Origin: a virus
IMG/VR virus record: IMGVR_UViG_3300032050_000862
Location: 1 to 22,767 of that record
Length of the DNA stretch: 22,767 nt
Strand: one strand, 5' to 3'
Shown here one piece after another: positions 1 to 20,834 of this stretch (positions are counted from its first letter, which is position 1; each line of letters starts with the position of its first letter). Both the position numbers and the translations under genes were made by a program. The notes beneath the pieces were generated by a model. The model was not told where the DNA came from. It worked only from the letters and a program-made list of their open reading frames with translations, and did not search any database.

Positions 1-39
1 ACGCCAGATGCTTGGTGGCAGCGGATCAGCGGTTTTCAT
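1..39 (-). CDS. Start of a leftward CDS cut by the window edge
   Basis: An ATG on the minus strand at 39 opens a frame that stays open to the window edge and encodes 13 residues beginning MKTADPLPP. It would overlap the end of the zinc-ribbon gene by 14 nt, in keeping with the overlapping layout of this operon. A GAGGG stretch lies upstream but is about 14 nt from the ATG, which is long. Too little is visible to name a product. It may be the next gene of the leftward operon or a chance frame. Confidence 0.35.
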   Translation of the reverse strand, partial: MKTADPLPPSIWR

Positions 40-7652: not shown

Positions 7653-8068
7653 TTCAGTGCCTCAACGCCAGCGTGGAGTTGACCGTAGTGCTCGGGCTTC
7701 ACATCGTTGATGTTCTGGTAGCCCAGACCAGTCAAGACGCCTTGGATCATGGCACCCTTTTGTGGGCCGAGGGCTTTGTAGGCACCCATCACGTAGTCGA
7801 TCAAGCCCTTGGGGTCACTGAACGGTGCGGCCAAAGTAATAGGTGCAACAGGTGCTGGTGCTGCGAATATGGGAGGCGCTGGCATGGCCGGGGCAGCAGC
7901 CACGGGTGCTTCCACGACAGGTGCTGCAACAGGAGCGGGGGCAGCTTGTACCACAGGGGCGGGTGTTGGCGCAACAGGTGCGGGTGCTGCTACATTGCTG
8001 GACTCCAGCTTGGCAGTCAGGGCAACCACGGCAGCGGTCAGGGCTTCAATCTTGAGTTCGAGTGACAT
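7649..8068 (-). CDS. Ala/Pro-linker two-domain protein, unknown function
   Basis: A 139-aa protein in three parts: a short N-terminal coiled coil (1-24, LKIEALTAAVVALTAKLES), a long low-complexity Ala/Pro/Val linker (25-82), and a compact C-terminal helical domain (83-139, DPKGLIDYVMGAYKALGP and following). The coiled coil may oligomerise it and the linker would tether the C-terminal unit. It starts at ATG 8068 behind CTGGAGAAACTTT, overlaps the upstream regulator gene by 23 nt and the nuclease by 4 nt. Being co-translated with the nuclease and ssDNA-binding protein hints at an accessory replication role. I do not recognise the family. Confidence 0.8.
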   Translation of the reverse strand: MSLELKIEALTAAVVALTAKLESSNVAAPAPVAPTPAPVVQAAPAPVAAPVVEAPVAAAPAMPAPPIFAAPAPVAPITLAAPFSDPKGLIDYVMGAYKALGPQKGAMIQGVLTGLGYQNINDVKPEHYGQLHAGVEALK

Positions 8069-8255
8069 AAAGTTTCTCCAGTTTACGGATTACAGGGGGT
8101 TGGATTGTGAGGCGATCTTCAACGAAAGCCTCGACGATTTCACGATGCACTTCGCTCGGTTTCCCGATCTTCTGTGCCTTGTCATGAAACTGGGTGTGCG
8201 TCTTGTCTGTCACTCGGACAGTCATGAACGCTGATTTGGGTTGGTTGGTGCGCAT
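8046..8255 (-). CDS. Ribbon-helix-helix-like regulator, first gene of the leftward operon
   Basis: A 69-aa protein. Residues 9-15 (AFMTVRV) form a plausible DNA-contacting beta strand, followed by helices 17-29 and 33-47 (PSEVHREIVEAFVEDRL), which is the order of an Arc/MetJ ribbon-helix-helix unit, and a basic tail. It starts at ATG 8255 behind AAGGAAATTATTC. Being the first gene after the divergent promoter with an 18-bp dyad, it is the natural candidate to bind that dyad and control both operons. That link is inference. A short non-regulatory DNA-binding protein is the alternative. Confidence 0.72.
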   Translation of the reverse strand: MRTNQPKSAFMTVRVTDKTHTQFHDKAQKIGKPSEVHREIVEAFVEDRLTIQPPVIRKLEKLYVTRTQD

Positions 8256-12080: not shown

Positions 12081-12165
12081 GGTTAGTTCGATGCCTTAAA
12101 AATTGGCAGTCGACGGTTAGTTCGATGCCTTAGTTTCAATGGCCGATGGTTGGTTCGATGCCTTA
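12081..12165. repeat. Three ~33-bp spaced repeats at the 3' end of the HTH gene
   Basis: GGTTAGTTCGATGCCTTA occurs at 12081-12098 and 12115-12132, and as GGTTGGTTCGATGCCTTA at 12148-12165. Copies 2 and 3 begin exactly 33 nt (11 codons) apart and encode the repeated ETKASN tail of the HTH protein. Copy 1, 34 nt away, lies past its stop codon in front of the 50-aa gene. Confidence 0.85.
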
Positions 12166-12455
12166 GTTTCAACGGCTTTCGGTCGTCCCCGGGGCCGCTT
12201 GGGGGCGGCGGGCACGGCGGCGGGCGTCAGCGCGTCGAGCACGGCGGGCGCGATGGCCTCGAGGGTGCCGAGCACGTCAAGCAACCGCATAGCGGCGGCG
12301 CTGGGTGCGCGGGTGCCCGCGATCCATTTGCGAAAGGTGTAAACCGGCACCCCGAGCAACCCGGCAGCGCTGGGTTCGTCAAGGGCACGGCGGGCGACAA
12401 AAGCCCCGAGGGTTGCGGCAAAGGGCACGGCGGGGGCACTGGGTGCGGTGTTCAT
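12117..12455 (-). CDS. Helix-turn-helix protein with AT-hook and repeated tail
   Basis: A 112-aa protein. Residues 15-62 form a Cro/YdaS-like helix-turn-helix: RRALDEPSAAGLLGVPVYTFRKWIAGTRAPSAAA is the helix-turn-helix stretch at 23-55 (described in parts: SAAGLLGV first helix, VYTFRKWIAG recognition helix). Residues 86-93, KRPRGRPK, are a textbook AT-hook. The tail ETKASNQPSAIETKASN comes from an 11-codon repeat. It is very GC-rich and lies between a terminator upstream and two repeats downstream, so it may have its own promoter, though I cannot see one clearly. It may be the accessory operon regulator and a candidate to bind the palindrome array at 14887-15466 (inference). Confidence 0.78.
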   Translation of the reverse strand: MNTAPSAPAVPFAATLGAFVARRALDEPSAAGLLGVPVYTFRKWIAGTRAPSAAAMRLLDVLGTLEAIAPAVLDALTPAAVPAAPKRPRGRPKAVETKASNQPSAIETKASN

Positions 12456-12475: not shown

Positions 12476-12503
12476 AAAAAAGCCCCCGGGGTGAACCGGG
12501 GGG
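12476..12503 (-). terminator. Rho-independent terminator, leftward
   Basis: Read leftward, CCCCCGG (12502-12496) pairs with CCGGGGG (12489-12483) around a 6-nt loop and is followed by C and six T's. It lies between the 28-aa membrane peptide gene and the helix-turn-helix gene, so it splits the leftward operon into two transcription units. Confidence 0.8.
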
Positions 12504-14426: not shown

Positions 14427-14563
14427 AGGGAAAAGAGAACAACGGTCAACAGGTAGACAACGATCAGCGCCAGGGCAGCGCCTGCCCAGATCGCCAGGGC
14501 TGAGGGTTCGCGGTCAACGGGCTGAGGGTGCAGGTCGATGTAGTGCAAAGAATGACGGTTCAT
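14423..14563 (-). CDS. 46-aa single-span (tail-anchored) membrane protein
   Basis: A 46-codon gene with a polar N-terminus (MNRHSLHYIDLHPQPVDREP) and a C-terminal hydrophobic stretch at 21-46 (SALAIWAGAALALIVVYLL and then TVVLFSL) that should span the membrane once. ATG 14563 overlaps the upstream TGA (ATGA) and has AAGGGG 8 nt before it. It ends in TAA within the GGGTTAC repeats. The topology suggests the N-terminus stays cytoplasmic. The function is unknown; membrane-acting superinfection or lysis roles are possibilities only. Confidence 0.7.
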   Translation of the reverse strand: MNRHSLHYIDLHPQPVDREPSALAIWAGAALALIVVYLLTVVLFSL

Positions 14564-14817
14564 GATTGCACCCCTTCGATTGCAGCGGCTTGACGTTCAA
14601 GCCAGGGCAGATCAGCCAGGGGAAAATCCGAACAGTCAATTTCACCCAGCACATGATGTGCCGGGTTGACGTTACAAAAAAGATCCATCACGTTAAATTG
14701 CTGACCGTAGGCCAAGACAATTTGAGCGCGGGCAATTGCAGCAGTCGCAGCGGTGGCGCGGGCGTATTCGATGCGGGGTCCGCGCTTGTCAATGATTTGA
14801 AATTCGAATTGTTTCAT
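14560..14817 (-). CDS. 85-aa hypothetical protein, first gene of the accessory operon
   Basis: An 85-aa protein with an N-terminal beta strand (MKQFEFQIIDKRG), an Ala-rich helix (ATAATAAIARAQIVLAYGQQ) and a C-terminal DCSDFPLADLPWL segment. No domain is recognised, although proteins beginning with this FEFQ...AR...AQ pattern are familiar from phages. It starts at ATG 14817 behind GAAAGGACCTGATC. The leader carries three GGGTTAC heptamers and a TATAAT box. It is the promoter-proximal gene of the leftward accessory operon. Confidence 0.75.
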   Translation of the reverse strand: MKQFEFQIIDKRGPRIEYARATAATAAIARAQIVLAYGQQFNVMDLFCNVNPAHHVLGEIDCSDFPLADLPWLERQAAAIEGVQS

Positions 14818-14881: not shown

Positions 14882-14916
14882 ATTATAACCCAGCGGGTTT
14901 GATGCTTTTCTGTCAC
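14882..14916 (-). promoter_or_regulatory. Possible leftward promoter of the accessory operon
   Basis: On the minus strand a perfect TATAAT lies at 14887-14882. The only -35-like hexamer, GTGACA (14916-14911), is 23 nt away, which is too long for a normal promoter; at 17 nt only GAAAAG is found. Palindrome 1 (14887-14899) overlaps the -10 by one base and fills the spacer, so the site would be controlled by whatever binds the palindromes. Confidence 0.4.
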
Positions 14917-14977
14917 TTATGCGACAAGTGAACAAATAACCCAGCGGGTAACGATCCCGGGGTGCTTTTTGGGGGTG

Positions 14978-15090
14978 GTGACAATGTGCCCTTTTGGTTC
15001 TAGGGGTTTGTTTTGTAGTTTGCTTAATCCTTGTGCAATTTGAAAAGTCTCTTATTTTCGCCTTGCCTGCGCGAAAGGGCACATTGTCAC
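14978..15090. repeat. Perfect 17-bp inverted repeat around an AT-richer spacer
   Basis: GTGACAATGTGCCCTTT (14978-14994) is the exact reverse complement of AAAGGGCACATTGTCAC (15074-15090). The 79-bp spacer is clearly more AT-rich than the surrounding DNA and includes a T-rich stretch (15006-15023). It may be an origin element, a pair of operators or the stem of a long hairpin. Confidence 0.85.
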
Positions 15091-15109
15091 AATCGGCCTC
15101 AATCGGCCT
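15090..15109. repeat. Two tandem CAATCGGCCT 10-mers
   Basis: CAATCGGCCT is perfectly duplicated at 15090-15099 and 15100-15109. It begins on the last base of the 17-bp inverted repeat and is followed 5 bp later by palindrome 3. Confidence 0.8.
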
Positions 15110-15469
15110 ATTTTGGCCCACTGGGTGCACGGTTGCCGTCAATCCCTTGACCCACTGGGGCATAAACTCTAACCCACTGGGTGCGGTGCCTGATCCACTG
15201 GGTGCGCGGTTTCGCCGCCCGCTTTGCCCCGGGCACCGGCACCCACTGGGTGCGCGGGTGCCGTGGGTTGCCGTGCCCACTGGGTGCGCGGCGCGGCGGT
15301 ATCGATCCCCGGCGCGATGGCGCGATCAACGGCGGCGCGGCGCAAAGCATAAACCGTGCCAGCGGTTCGATGGGGGCGGGTGAGGGCCGGAGCGAGGTGG
15401 GCCGCTGGCCGGGAGGTATCACAGAAACTCTGAAAATTTTTTAGAAAATCAAAAACCCAGTGGGTTCCA

Positions 15470-15498
15470 TAGACACCGTGAAAATACCGTAGTACACT
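15470..15498 (+). promoter_or_regulatory. Rightward promoter of the packaging operon
   Basis: TAGACA (15470-15475) and TACACT (15493-15498) are 17 nt apart, preceded by palindrome 9 and an A/T-rich UP-like stretch. Transcription would start near 15505, only a few bases before the small terminase ATG at 15508, so the message might be nearly leaderless. Confidence 0.5.
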
Positions 15499-15507
15499 GA
15501 AGGCACT

Positions 15508-16077
15508 ATGAAACAAGGAAACACTGATTTCGTAGGCACGGCTGTCGCCAGTGAGAACCAACTGCCAAACTGGCTAACCGTGCCCGACCCAGCCCCCATC
15601 AAACCCTCGAAAGAGGCAAGGGCGCTGCTGCATGTCGAATATGAGCAGATATTTGAGCGTGTTGTGGAGGACATCTACCGGGGCCGATCCCTGCAATCCT
15701 TGATCGAAGATGACTACCGGGCCATCTCGTATGAGGACTTCCTGCGCTGGGTCAAGCGCGAACCCACCCGCCATGAACGATTCAAGGAAGCGCAGGAGAT
15801 GCGTACTGAGTTTCTTGCGGGAGAAATCCTTGAGATTGCCGATGGGGTCGAGGCCATCGACGCCAACTCGAACGACACGGTGAACAGGGACAAGCTGCGC
15901 ATCGACACGCGCAAGTGGCTCATGAGCGCACACAACAAGAAACGCTACGGCGAGATCAAGCAGGTTGAACTCGGCGGCACCATCTCCATCACTGAGGCGC
16001 TGGCGCAGGCCCAAGCCCGGGTGATCGAGGGTGAGGTGATTGACGTATCCGATGTAACCCCTCGACTGGAGAACTGA
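15508..16077 (+). CDS. terS: Terminase small subunit
   Basis: A 189-aa small terminase, which recognises the packaging site and loads the large subunit. The family signature is present: a helix-turn-helix-like region at 55-85 (IYRGRSLQSLIEDDYRAIS), then REPTRHERFKEAQEMRTEFL and the closing RIDTRKWLMSAHNKKRYGE (131-149), followed by a beta/helix oligomer-type tail KQVELGGTISITEALAQA. ATG 15508 has GAAGG 4 nt upstream, a tight spacing, and lies beside the predicted transcript start. It is the first gene of the rightward operon and overlaps the next gene by 1 nt (TGATG). Confidence 0.88.
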   Translation: MKQGNTDFVGTAVASENQLPNWLTVPDPAPIKPSKEARALLHVEYEQIFERVVEDIYRGRSLQSLIEDDYRAISYEDFLRWVKREPTRHERFKEAQEMRTEFLAGEILEIADGVEAIDANSNDTVNRDKLRIDTRKWLMSAHNKKRYGEIKQVELGGTISITEALAQAQARVIEGEVIDVSDVTPRLEN

Positions 16078-16178
16078 TGATGCGCAAACGCTGGATGAAG
16101 ACCATGCTGGCTGCGTATGCGCTGTCGATGGTGCTTGGCCTGTGGGCACTGGTTGAACTGATTGCAAGGACGATTTGA
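16077..16178 (+). CDS. 33-aa membrane peptide between the terminase genes
   Basis: A 33-codon frame starting at ATG 16077 has a positive N-terminus (MMRKRWMK) and one hydrophobic span (TMLAAYALSMVLGLWALVEL), ending IARTI. The start overlaps the small terminase TGA, and the TGA (16176-16178) overlaps the large terminase ATG (TGATG), so the gap is exactly filled by a coupled ORF. The arrangement predicts an N-in single-span peptide. A holin-like or packaging-related role is speculation. Confidence 0.6.
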   Translation: MMRKRWMKTMLAAYALSMVLGLWALVELIARTI

Positions 16179-17719
16179 TGCAAAAACCCCGGTACAGCCC
16201 AGAAGACGAGCAGACGCTCATGGCCCAGCTTTGGAGTCCTGCCCTCAAGGACGACCCCGAGGCGTTTGTGCTGTTCGCGTTTCCTTGGGGGCAGAAGAAC
16301 ACCCCACTCGAACACTTCAAAGCCCCGCGCACATGGCAGCGTAGAGCACTGCGCAGGATACGGGACTTCATCAAAGAGAACCGGGGCAAGCAGAGCAACG
16401 ACGAGTTGATCGACGCGCTGCGCAGGGCTGTGTCCTCTGGCCGGGGGGTGGGGAAGTCTGCCCTCGTGTCGTGGCTGATCCTGTGGATGCTGACCACTCG
16501 CATCGGCTCCAGCGTGATCGTGTCGGCCAACAGCGAGAACCAGTTGCGCAAAGTGACATGGGGTGAGTTGACCAAATGGGTCACGATGGCGATCAATGCC
16601 CACTGGTGGGAACCCACGGCCACGAGCCTGACCCCGGCCAACTGGTTGACCGAACTGGTCGAGCGTGACCTGCGCAAAGGCACCCGGTACTGGGGTGCCG
16701 AGGGCAAACTGTGGAGCGAGGAGAACCCAGACGCCTATGCCGGTGTGCACAACATGGACGGCATGATGGTGATCTTCGACGAGGCCAGCGGTATTCCAGA
16801 CTCGATCTGGTCCGTGGCTGCGGGCTTCTTTACCGAGAACATCTTGGACCGGTACTGGCTGGCGTTTAGCAACGGTCGTCGCAACACCGGGTACTTCTAC
16901 GAGGCCGTGGACGGCAGCAAGCGGGAGTTCTGGGAGAGCGAGAAGATTGACGCCCGCACAGTCGAGGGCACCGACAAGACCATCTACCAGCAGATCATCA
17001 ACGAGTATGGTGAGGACTCGGACGAGGCGCGGGTCGAGGTCTATGGAGACTTCCCCAAGTCGGGCCAAGACCAGTTCATTGCACCGCACCTTGTCGATGA
17101 CGCCATGAAGCGGGCGCTGCACAAGGACATGACCGCGCCCATCATCATCGGCGTGGACCCGGCCCGGGGCGGCATGGACAGCACCGTGATTGCCGTGCGC
17201 CAAGGGCGGGACATCGTGGCGATCAAGCGGTTCCGTGGTGACGACACCATGACCACCGTGGGCCACGTCATCGACGCCATCGAGGAGTACCGGCCAGCAC
17301 TGACCGTGATCGACGAGGGTGGGCTGGGCTACGGCATCCTTGACAGATTGACCGAGCAGAAGTACAAAGTGCGCGGGGTCAACTTCGGCTGGAAGGCCAA
17401 GAACCCGGTGATGTGGGGCAACAAGCGGGCCGAGATTTGGGGAGCCATGCGCGACTGGGTGAAGACAGCCAGCTTGCCGCAGGACAGGTTGCTGAAAAGC
17501 GATCTGACCGGTCCGATGAAAAAGCCCAACTCGGCTGGCACCATCTTCTTGGAAGGTAAAAAGGAGATGAAAGCCCGTGGAGTTGCGTCACCGGATGCGG
17601 CTGACGCCATCGCTGTGACATTCGCGTACCCCGTGGCACATCGGGAGTACAATGACCGCACAATCACCCGGCGCAACGCTCAAAACGGTGCGGCCACAAC
17701 TTCATGGATGGGATCGTGA
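16178..17719 (+). CDS. terL: Terminase large subunit
   Basis: A 513-aa packaging motor. The ATPase has Walker A GRGVGKSA (88-95), Walker B MVIFDEA (197-203) and the coupling motif LAFSNGRR (228-235). The C-terminal RNase H-like nuclease shows D327 in GVDPARGGMD, D379 in VIDEGG, and D473/D476 in SPDAADAIA. All catalytic acids are present, and the length is usual. The ATG at 16178 is chosen over an in-frame TTG at 16175 because it overlaps the peptide stop as TGATG. It translocates and cuts DNA at the portal. Confidence 0.95.
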   Translation: MQKPRYSPEDEQTLMAQLWSPALKDDPEAFVLFAFPWGQKNTPLEHFKAPRTWQRRALRRIRDFIKENRGKQSNDELIDALRRAVSSGRGVGKSALVSWLILWMLTTRIGSSVIVSANSENQLRKVTWGELTKWVTMAINAHWWEPTATSLTPANWLTELVERDLRKGTRYWGAEGKLWSEENPDAYAGVHNMDGMMVIFDEASGIPDSIWSVAAGFFTENILDRYWLAFSNGRRNTGYFYEAVDGSKREFWESEKIDARTVEGTDKTIYQQIINEYGEDSDEARVEVYGDFPKSGQDQFIAPHLVDDAMKRALHKDMTAPIIIGVDPARGGMDSTVIAVRQGRDIVAIKRFRGDDTMTTVGHVIDAIEEYRPALTVIDEGGLGYGILDRLTEQKYKVRGVNFGWKAKNPVMWGNKRAEIWGAMRDWVKTASLPQDRLLKSDLTGPMKKPNSAGTIFLEGKKEMKARGVASPDAADAIAVTFAYPVAHREYNDRTITRRNAQNGAATTSWMGS

Positions 17720-18280: not shown

Positions 18281-20472
18281 AAGACACCACCGGAATCGTA
18301 GCCGCAGCCAATGTGGCAAAAAACGGACCGTACCCGTCAAAAGGCGGTTCCGAGGAAATCCTGACCGTTGCCCGTTCACGCATGAACACGGCGATCACGG
18401 CGTTTTCCCAGACTCGGGAAGACGAACTCGATGACCTGCGGTTCTACGCAGGCTCCCCAGACAACCAGTGGCAGTGGCCCGCTGACGTGCTCCAGACTCG
18501 TGGTGCCGTGCAGGGTCAGACCATTAACGCCCGCCCCTGCCTGACCATCAACAAGCTGCCGCAGCACGTTCATCAAGTGACGAACGAGCAGCGCATGAAC
18601 CGTCCCGGCATCAAGGTGATCCCGGCTGACGACAAGGCAGACGTGGACGTGGCCGATGTGTTCAATGGCGTGATTCGCCACATCGAGTACATTTCCGATG
18701 CTGATGTGGCCTACGACACAGCCTGCGAGAACCAAGTGTCCTACGGCGAAGGCTACATCCGTCTGCTGACCGAGTACTGCGACGAAGACACGTTCGATCA
18801 GGACATCAAGATCGGGCGCATTCGCAACAGCTTCAGCGTCTACATGGACCCCCTGATCCAAGACCCCACTGGCGCAGACGCCAAGTGGTGCTTTGTGACG
18901 GAAGACCTACCCAAAGCTGAATATGAGCGTCTGTACCCCGATGCAGCGCCGATCAGCACCCTCATGAGCCTTGGCGTGGGCGATCAATCCATCGCACAGT
19001 GGATCGGTGAAAACACCATCCGCATCGCCGAGTACTTCTACATCGAGTACGAGAAGCAGACGCTCAACCTGTACCCCGGCAACCAGACTGCGTTCAGCGG
19101 TACGCCCGAGGACAAGACCCTGCGCATGATGTTCGGTAAGCCAATCCGCAGCCGCGAAGCTGACCGCAAAAAGGTCAAGTGGTGCAAGATTAACGGCTAC
19201 GACATCCTCGAAGAACGCGAGTGGGCTGGTGCCTACATTCCCGTGGTGCGCGTGGTCGGCAACGAGTTCGAGGTGGACGGCCAGATGTACGTGTCGGGCT
19301 TGGTGCGTAACGCCAAGGATGCCCAGCGCATGTACAACTACTGGGTGTCGCAGGAAGCTGAGATGCTGGCGCTGGCCCCCAAAGCACCGTTCATCGGGTA
19401 CGGCGGTCAGTTTGAAGGCTACGAGCAGCAGTGGAAGACTGCCAACACGAACAACTGGCCCTATCTGGAGGTCAATCCTGACGTTACAGACGGTCAAGGT
19501 GCTGTGTTGCCACTACCCCAGCGGGCACAGCCTCCGATGGCCTCCAGCGGCCTCCTGCAAGCCAAGGCAGGTGCTGCCGAGGACATCAAGTCGGCCACCG
19601 GCCAGTACAACGCATCGCTGGGCATGACCAGCAACGAACGTAGCGGAAAAGCTATTCTTGCCCGCCAGCGCGAAGGCGACATCGGCACCTACCACTACGT
19701 TGACAACTTGGCCCGTGCGATCCGTCACATTGGCCGTCAACTCGTGGACCTGATTCCCAAGATTTACGACACCGAGCGCATCGCCCGCATCATTGGCGAA
19801 GATGGTGAGCCATCGACCGTCAAGATGAACCCGATGCAGGAAGAACCTGTCAAGCGGATCGTGGACCAAGAGGGTGTGTTGATTGAAAAAATCTACAACC
19901 CTGCTGTCGGCAAGTACGATGTGCGCGTGATCACCGGCCCCGGCTACGCTACCAAGCGTCAGGAAGCCTTGGAGAGCATGGCCCAGTTGCTGCAAGGCAA
20001 CCCACAGTTGTGGCAAGTCGCTGGCGACCTGTTCGTCAAGAACATGGACTGGCCCGGTGCCCAAGACCTTGCCAAGCGGTTCAAAAAGACTATCGACCCC
20101 AAAGTGCTGGCCGACGAAGACGATCCAGCCTTGGCCGCTGCCAACCAGCAGATGGAGGCGATGGCCGCTGAGATGGAGAACATGTTCCAGATGTTGCAAA
20201 ACGTCAACCAGAGCATGGAAGCCCGCGAGATGCAGATCAAGCAGTTTGAAGCTGACATCAAGGCATACTCTGCCGAGACACAGCGCATCAGCGCGGTGCA
20301 GGCTGGCATGTCGCCCGAGCAGATTCAGGACATCGTGATGGGCACCATTGCCGCAGCGATGGACACTGGCGATCTGGTTGCAGGCGCACCGCAGATGCCT
20401 GAGATGCCGATGCAGCCCGAGATGCCGATGGAGCAGCCGCAGGGTCAAATGCCACCTGAAGGGATGATGTAA
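18277..20472 (+). CDS. P22-like portal protein
   Basis: A 731-aa portal of the P22-like family, which forms the dodecameric vertex for DNA entry and tail joining. Evidence: long N-terminal helix after RSRMNTAITAFSQTREDELDD, DLRFYAGSPDNQWQWP, LTINKLPQHVHQVTNEQRMN, DVADVFNGVIRHIEYIS, and VSYGEGYIRLLTEY. A helical region at about 620-690 precedes a Met/Pro/Gln-rich tail with repeats of PEMPMQ. ATG 18277 overlaps the GroES-like stop (ATGA). The length and order after terL fit the family. Confidence 0.93.
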   Translation: MKDTTGIVAAANVAKNGPYPSKGGSEEILTVARSRMNTAITAFSQTREDELDDLRFYAGSPDNQWQWPADVLQTRGAVQGQTINARPCLTINKLPQHVHQVTNEQRMNRPGIKVIPADDKADVDVADVFNGVIRHIEYISDADVAYDTACENQVSYGEGYIRLLTEYCDEDTFDQDIKIGRIRNSFSVYMDPLIQDPTGADAKWCFVTEDLPKAEYERLYPDAAPISTLMSLGVGDQSIAQWIGENTIRIAEYFYIEYEKQTLNLYPGNQTAFSGTPEDKTLRMMFGKPIRSREADRKKVKWCKINGYDILEEREWAGAYIPVVRVVGNEFEVDGQMYVSGLVRNAKDAQRMYNYWVSQEAEMLALAPKAPFIGYGGQFEGYEQQWKTANTNNWPYLEVNPDVTDGQGAVLPLPQRAQPPMASSGLLQAKAGAAEDIKSATGQYNASLGMTSNERSGKAILARQREGDIGTYHYVDNLARAIRHIGRQLVDLIPKIYDTERIARIIGEDGEPSTVKMNPMQEEPVKRIVDQEGVLIEKIYNPAVGKYDVRVITGPGYATKRQEALESMAQLLQGNPQLWQVAGDLFVKNMDWPGAQDLAKRFKKTIDPKVLADEDDPALAAANQQMEAMAAEMENMFQMLQNVNQSMEAREMQIKQFEADIKAYSAETQRISAVQAGMSPEQIQDIVMGTIAAAMDTGDLVAGAPQMPEMPMQPEMPMEQPQGQMPPEGMM

Positions 20473-20834
20473 TGAGTTGCGCTGAATTTGTTGGTGAGTT
20501 GTTCTTGGCGCGGGATGTGGCCCATTCCGTCCACCTCAACACCCGTTCCTACTCAAAACACAAGGCGCTGCGGCACTTCTACAAGGACGTTCTGGAAGCT
20601 GCCGACAAGTTTGCCGAGGCGTACCAAGGCCGTCATGGTCTAATTGGCCCCATCTCGCTCAAGTCAGCCCGCAAGGACGGCGCAATCCTGCCGTTTTTGG
20701 AGGACTCGCTGGCCTACATCGAGGAAAACCGGTACAAGGTCTGCGGCAAGACCGACACCACTTTGCAGAACATCATTGACGAGATCATTGCTGTTTACCT
20801 GTCCGCTTTGTACAAACTGAGGTTCCTCGCATGA
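20472..20834 (+). CDS. Helical phage protein (DUF5856-like)
   Basis: A 120-aa, largely helical protein with HLNTRSYSKHKALRHFYKDV, EAADKFAEAYQGRHGLIGP and LQNIIDEIIAVYLSALYKLR. It resembles a family of short phage proteins of four-helix appearance that I believe is DUF5856, but the identification is from memory. ATG 20472 overlaps the portal TAA by 1 nt, and its TGA overlaps the next ATG by 4 nt. The role is unknown. Confidence 0.75.
   Translation: MSCAEFVGELFLARDVAHSVHLNTRSYSKHKALRHFYKDVLEAADKFAEAYQGRHGLIGPISLKSARKDGAILPFLEDSLAYIEENRYKVCGKTDTTLQNIIDEIIAVYLSALYKLRFLA

Follow-up and report, generated by a model that had tools for sequence, protein, structure and literature searches.

Aca proteins are small phage HTH proteins which repress promoters through inverted repeats. 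Iteron origins, like P1 oriR and lambda ori, carry dense repeats for a phage or plasmid protein. In phage phi29, the early protein p4 (with p6) acts from a shared region to repress the early promoters and to activate the late one. Its four sites between these promoters are inverted repeats of the form CTTTTT-15 bp-AAAATG, and A-tracts matter as well (PMC3100819). MqsA, which is known from E. coli and P. putida, binds the palindrome ACCT-N3-AGGT, whose spacer is free. This operator lies in the promoter region of the operon that encodes MqsA, and the MqsA residues Asn97 and Arg101 matter for binding (PMC5422877). No description of an MqsA-like phage switch was found in a literature search, and no gene control was found described for the uncultured freshwater podoviruses of the proposed family 'Luchaoviridae'.

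The window analyzed here, i.e., the whole stretch of 22,767 bases, is an IMG/VR virus record of a P22-like podovirus. It encodes a large terminase, a P22-like portal, a DNA polymerase, a Prim-Pol/DUF3987 primase-helicase, an Enc34-type SSB and a DUF2800 exonuclease. The nearest named relative is phage DSL-LC05 (OR003940, 37.6 kb), whose large terminase is 93% identical and for which 'Luchaoviridae' was proposed (PMC10611076); the repeats described below are not mentioned in that paper. Further loci were gathered from IMG/VR by terS and terL, with a first set of 96 distinct loci, which are kin of one another and some of them fragments, so that counts are not independent. The region between the leftward operon and terS is probably an early/late switch, which would be run by an HTH protein on ACCC-N3-GGGT operators.

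This region contains nine ACCC-N3-GGGT palindromes between positions 14888 and 15465, of which five are exact and four deviate by a single mismatch (Table 1). A preliminary description had listed nine sites of the form (A/C)ACCC-N3-GGGT. The number stands, whereas the consensus is slightly idealised, because four sites depart from it by one base. The spacings are 51, 177, 34, 22, 21, 48, 34, and 180 bp, and the middle six sites are thus correctly placed 21-48 bp apart. The exact palindrome ACCCNNNGGGT occurs five times in the window versus 0.45 expected from shuffles, none of 100 shuffles reaching five, and a count over the 22.8-kb record gave no exact copy outside the array, which holds 5/5. 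With one mismatch permitted, 9 of the 26 matches in the record fall within 0.58 kb. The string CCCASTGGG is present in six copies, every one within the array, and in none when read backwards.

Table 1. Positions of the control elements and neighboring genes in the window.
Feature	Position	Strand	Remark
HTH protein	12117..12455	-	112 aa, MqsA/HigA-type HTH, AT-hook-like RPRGRPK tail; proposed array ligand
Intrinsic terminator	12483..12502	-	CCCCCGGTTCACCCCGGGGG then CTTTTTT, directly upstream of the HTH gene
First gene of the leftward operon	14560..14817	-	
Leftward (early) promoter, -10 TATAAT	14882..14887	-	read 14887-14882
Operator 1	14888..14898	-	ACCCGCTGGGT on the - strand, exact; adjoins the leftward -10 TATAAT
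Operator 2	14939..14949	-	exact
Conserved stem element (~113 bp)	14976..15092		17-bp perfect inverted repeat 14978-14994 / 15074-15090 around ~79 nt
Operator 3	15116..15126	+	GCCCACTGGGT, one-base departure (GCCC)
Operator 4	15150..15160	+	ACCCACTGGGG, one-base departure (...GGGG)
Operator 5	15172..15182	+	exact
Operator 6	15193..15203	+	ATCCACTGGGT, one-base departure (ATCC)
Operator 7	15241..15251	+	exact
Operator 8	15275..15285	+	GCCCACTGGGT, one-base departure (GCCC)
Conserved A/T tract	15430..15454	+	gaaaattttttagaaaatcaaaa, just upstream of operator 9; kept in loci without the HTH
Operator 9	15455..15465	+	ACCCAGTGGGT, exact; helical phase with the terS promoter across relatives
terS (late) promoter	15470..15498	+	TAGACA-17-TACACT, weak hexamers
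terS, terminase small subunit (Sf6-type)	15508..16077	+	first late gene
terL, terminase large subunit	16175..17719	+	

The same count in relatives showed the array to be conserved: about 90% of the 96 distinct loci examined have it upstream of terS. In the relatives' loci the site density reaches up to 3.8 per 200 bp in the array versus about 0.02 elsewhere. The array is retained down to a TerS identity of 46% (loci with 46-49%), and the logo ACCC[A/G]N[T/C]GGGT is found at the left, cluster and terS-proximal positions. That the sites serve a host regulator or are a chance repeat is extremely improbable: no support for it was found, and both the density, far above chance, and the strict co-inheritance with a phage gene argue against it.

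This gene encodes the HTH protein, which is very probably the ligand of the array, as the preliminary description had proposed. In 66 loci the sequence extends at least 3.9 kb upstream of terS; 61 of these carry the HTH as well as the array and three lack both (L194, L230, L222; Fisher p=2e-4), while two loci with the HTH carry fewer than four sites, namely three and two. A second search began from the HTH alignment and was not selected on terS. Of the 52 loci with sufficient sequence in this search, 50 have the array upstream, versus 1 of 80 in the downstream control, and the remaining two carry three sites. The HTH gene is oriented leftward in 70/70 loci and is located 2.0-4.1 kb from terS. 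Among named phages it was found only in DSL-LC05 and, as a weak match, in an Akkermansia phage, and no homologues were found in the bacterial and archaeal genomes searched.

The proposed pairing is also supported by covariation. The central-trinucleotide composition of the sites follows the distance between HTH cores (r=0.20, p<0.0005; partial r=0.22), which is a modest correlation. With TerS distance the correlation is r=0.003, and TerS was rejected as ligand on this ground. The same independence bears on the reading of the array as a packaging (pac) signal bound by TerS, for which the position next to terS would speak, since the pac sites of P22-like phages are located near this gene. This reading is very improbable, because other motifs are found in loci whose TerS is 70-77% identical, whereas the loci with 46-49% identity keep the array motif, and because operators lie inside the leftward promoter.

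Furthermore, the HTH is related to that of MqsA and the operator architecture resembles the MqsA operator. The top PDB match of the HTH profile is the C-terminal HTH of MqsA (3fmy, E=0.0012), and in the profile alignment Lys43 of the phage protein corresponds to Arg101 of MqsA; Tyr39 is paired with Asn97. A structure model (core pLDDT >90) matches the folds of HigA2, MqsA, and Aca10, with Foldseek E-values >0.07. Lys43 is changed in L126, which has the recognition helix RNW and carries TCAATGGGTT copies, as well as in L140/L141, which have the recognition helix RHW and variant sites. If the proposed switch holds true, its operator code shifts between lineages with the recognition helix, and specificity and switching would be directly testable.

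The apparent likeness to MqsA comprises the HTH domain, the operator architecture and an operator in the promoter region of the regulator's own operon (PMC5422877). However, the 112-aa phage protein is cysteine-free and consists of the HTH only, without the N-terminal zinc domain and its CxxC. In addition, the operator has C instead of T at base 4, there are nine sites versus one or two, and the protein would also act on a divergent late promoter. The MqsR toxin is not named among the PHROGs matches obtained. Aca2 and Aca10 are likewise small phage HTH proteins of similar predicted fold, but differ by the nine-site array and the late-promoter contact, and no anti-CRISPR operon was identified here (no dedicated search).

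AT-hook-like tails with an RGR core were found in 40 of 64 HTH proteins. Two other proteins of the window were considered as ligand: the DUF5856 protein at 20472-20834 and a 69-aa protein at 8046-8255, which resembles a ribbon-helix-helix regulator and has no Pfam match. The latter has a homologue in few loci only, and few loci extend that far upstream.

The outermost sites touch the promoters as described before: one abuts the leftward -10 and the other ends 4 bp before the terS -35. The leftward promoter of the window has a perfect TATAAT and a poor, non-canonical -35, unlike most relatives, which have TTGACA; this -35 counts against the switch. In 51 of 87 loci the left operator lies within the spacer of a strong TTGACA-16..18-TATAAT-like promoter, versus 0.1% of random positions, and in some other loci it covers the -35.

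On the right side, the hexamers of the terS promoter are weak (about 4/6). Every locus examined has its terS-proximal operator upstream of the core promoter. Relative to the ATG, this operator mostly occupies -53, -63, or -73, and it is phased at 10.25 bp (R=0.84 for 45 de-duplicated spacers, reached by 0 of 20000 random sets). Within the six-site cluster, the spacings are not in helical phase (R about 0.06 at 10.5 bp). The sequence ACTATG at the start of terS (15505-15510) is invariant throughout the family, which suggests a terS leader of about 3 nt and therefore a nearly leaderless mRNA.

These site positions support the earlier view that one regulator may contact both promoters, and the geometry points to a transcription switch. 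A left operator in or at the core promoter and a right operator upstream of it are what would be expected if the left promoter is repressed and the right one activated; activation is suggested by the position of the terS-proximal operator.

In the proposed switch, the leftward promoter would be active first and the leftward operon would be transcribed. The HTH gene is located about 2.4 kb into this operon and behind an intrinsic terminator, and its product would appear late in the early phase. As a dimer, the HTH protein would act on the ACCC-N3-GGGT operators. At operator 1, which adjoins the leftward core promoter or, in relatives, lies inside it, it would block RNA polymerase and therefore shut off its own operon. 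At operator 9, on a fixed helix face upstream of the weak terS promoter, it would contact RNA polymerase or loop to the six-site cluster and thereby activate the packaging and structural genes. Local occupancy may be increased by the cluster, which may also sharpen the switch. If this holds true, a 112-aa protein and nine short sites would form a compact early/late switch.

The timing is based on the terminator. In 54 of 70 loci, the HTH gene is preceded by a hairpin and T run resembling a terminator, versus 4% of random stretches; in the other 16/70 none was detected by the scan used. A terminator at this place suggests that the HTH protein is made by read-through and hence late in the early phase. 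Operators before the HTH gene itself were rejected, since the apparent matches in 19/70 loci are mostly located about 40 bp upstream, which is the position of the terminator hairpin.

The statement that no described system has this layout was too strong, as phi29 p4 is comparable (PMC3100819). Like p4, the HTH would be a phage early protein encoded in the operon it represses, and several inverted-repeat sites are located between the early and late promoters, which one protein may bind throughout. The differences from the four p4 sites are the nine ACCC-N3-GGGT palindromes, the MqsA/HigA-type HTH and the extra stem element.

The HTH protein could instead repress both promoters by looping between the left sites, the cluster and operator 9, and serve immunity or superinfection control as in temperate phages. 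HTH proteins of the Xre/MqsA type are mostly repressors, the left operator overlaps a core promoter, and the HTH of DSL-LC05 is annotated as 'repressor protein C'. Most of the gaps between left sites and cluster belong to length classes close to 156, 167, and 177 bp, which would suit looping. A looping repressor at terS would likewise need helical phase, which weighs against the switch. However, in the relatives examined the terS operator is always clear of the core promoter and shifts by full helical turns, unlike the left side, and an integrase is not named among the annotated genes of DSL-LC05. Control by repression only is quite improbable, and the switch is the reading followed here.

The preliminary description had also considered an iteron-type origin. 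In this case the HTH or the Prim-Pol/helicase would bind the array as iterons and open the DNA at the A/T tract or the stem, and the contact to the promoters would be secondary. As in iteron origins, the sites are dense and lie within one intergenic region, and an AT-rich stem element as well as the A/T tract are located beside them. In 7 of 105 loci (L224, L164, L043, L029, L017, L054, L067) the DnaA boxes TTATCCACA / TGTGGATAA surround an extra operator at about -750 to -600 from terS. Six of these loci have an inverted pair with a distance of about 60 bp, and the seventh has a single box; this count covers boxes near the array, and a further set at -5.5 to -3.5 kb is outside it. In MW202483, a small DnaA domain-IV protein accompanies a different array in the corresponding position.

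In contrast, the window and most relatives have no DnaA boxes near the array, the sites are palindromes and not directional iterons, and the cluster is unphased and GC-rich (AT 0.27-0.32). The GC skew of the complete DSL-LC05 genome has no extreme at the array, but it follows the coding strand and is uninformative in this respect. Furthermore, an origin alone leaves the operators built into promoters and the helical phasing at terS unexplained. As the main function of the region, an origin is therefore unlikely and the earlier reading is not supported; as an additional role it is possible, and the promoter geometry does not need it.

A covarying stem, the terminator before the HTH gene and the swap of operator motifs between lineages were unexpected and absent from the preliminary description. 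The stem element is located between the two left operators and the six-site cluster and was found in 98 of 105 loci, including loci with a different operator motif. Its outer stem covaries, with 64 cells in which both sides are changed versus 25 +/- 4 in shuffles. The covariation score is 0.217 versus 0.115 shuffled, a value reached by 0 of 500 shuffles, and slid versions score at most 0.097. This covariation is strong but not final, because the shuffles leave the relatedness of the loci in place. The wobble asymmetry (50 G-T versus 32 A-C cells, 12 versus 11 kinds) is not decisive for the strand. An Rfam search of the region gave no match, and this stem within the array possibly represents a kind of RNA or DNA element not described before.

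Finally, where the HTH is missing, the position of the array is occupied by other repeats. In L110/L230 and L222 these are AAACATC...GATGTTT-like repeats and in L106/L194 CCCGGTTTTTCCCGGA-like repeats. L121, whose locus is too short to reach the HTH region, carries TGTGACA repeats. The more distant MW202483 (L243) has GTTTAYGTAAAC palindromes (GTTTA-Y-GTAAAC, L243:28200-28600) upstream of the terminase region; its DnaA domain-IV protein (L243:31423-31719, PF08299, E=1e-17) may bind this array. The stem element was not seen in MW202483.

The region may be regarded, tentatively and with considerable doubt, as a modular control centre. A fixed frame of the ~113-bp stem, the A/T tract and the near-leaderless terS promoter would be combined with swapped sets of regulator and operator, like the MqsA-like HTH with ACCC-N3-GGGT, the DnaA domain-IV protein with GTTTAYGTAAAC, and others. 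The stem would then be an RNA or single-stranded DNA device which couples the switch to replication or packaging.

A sliding-clamp-like protein (L110:3805-4419, PF02767) is encoded in the leftward operon of L110, which is without the HTH, and a protein alike to it was found in L222, also without the HTH, at -1457 to -896 from terS.
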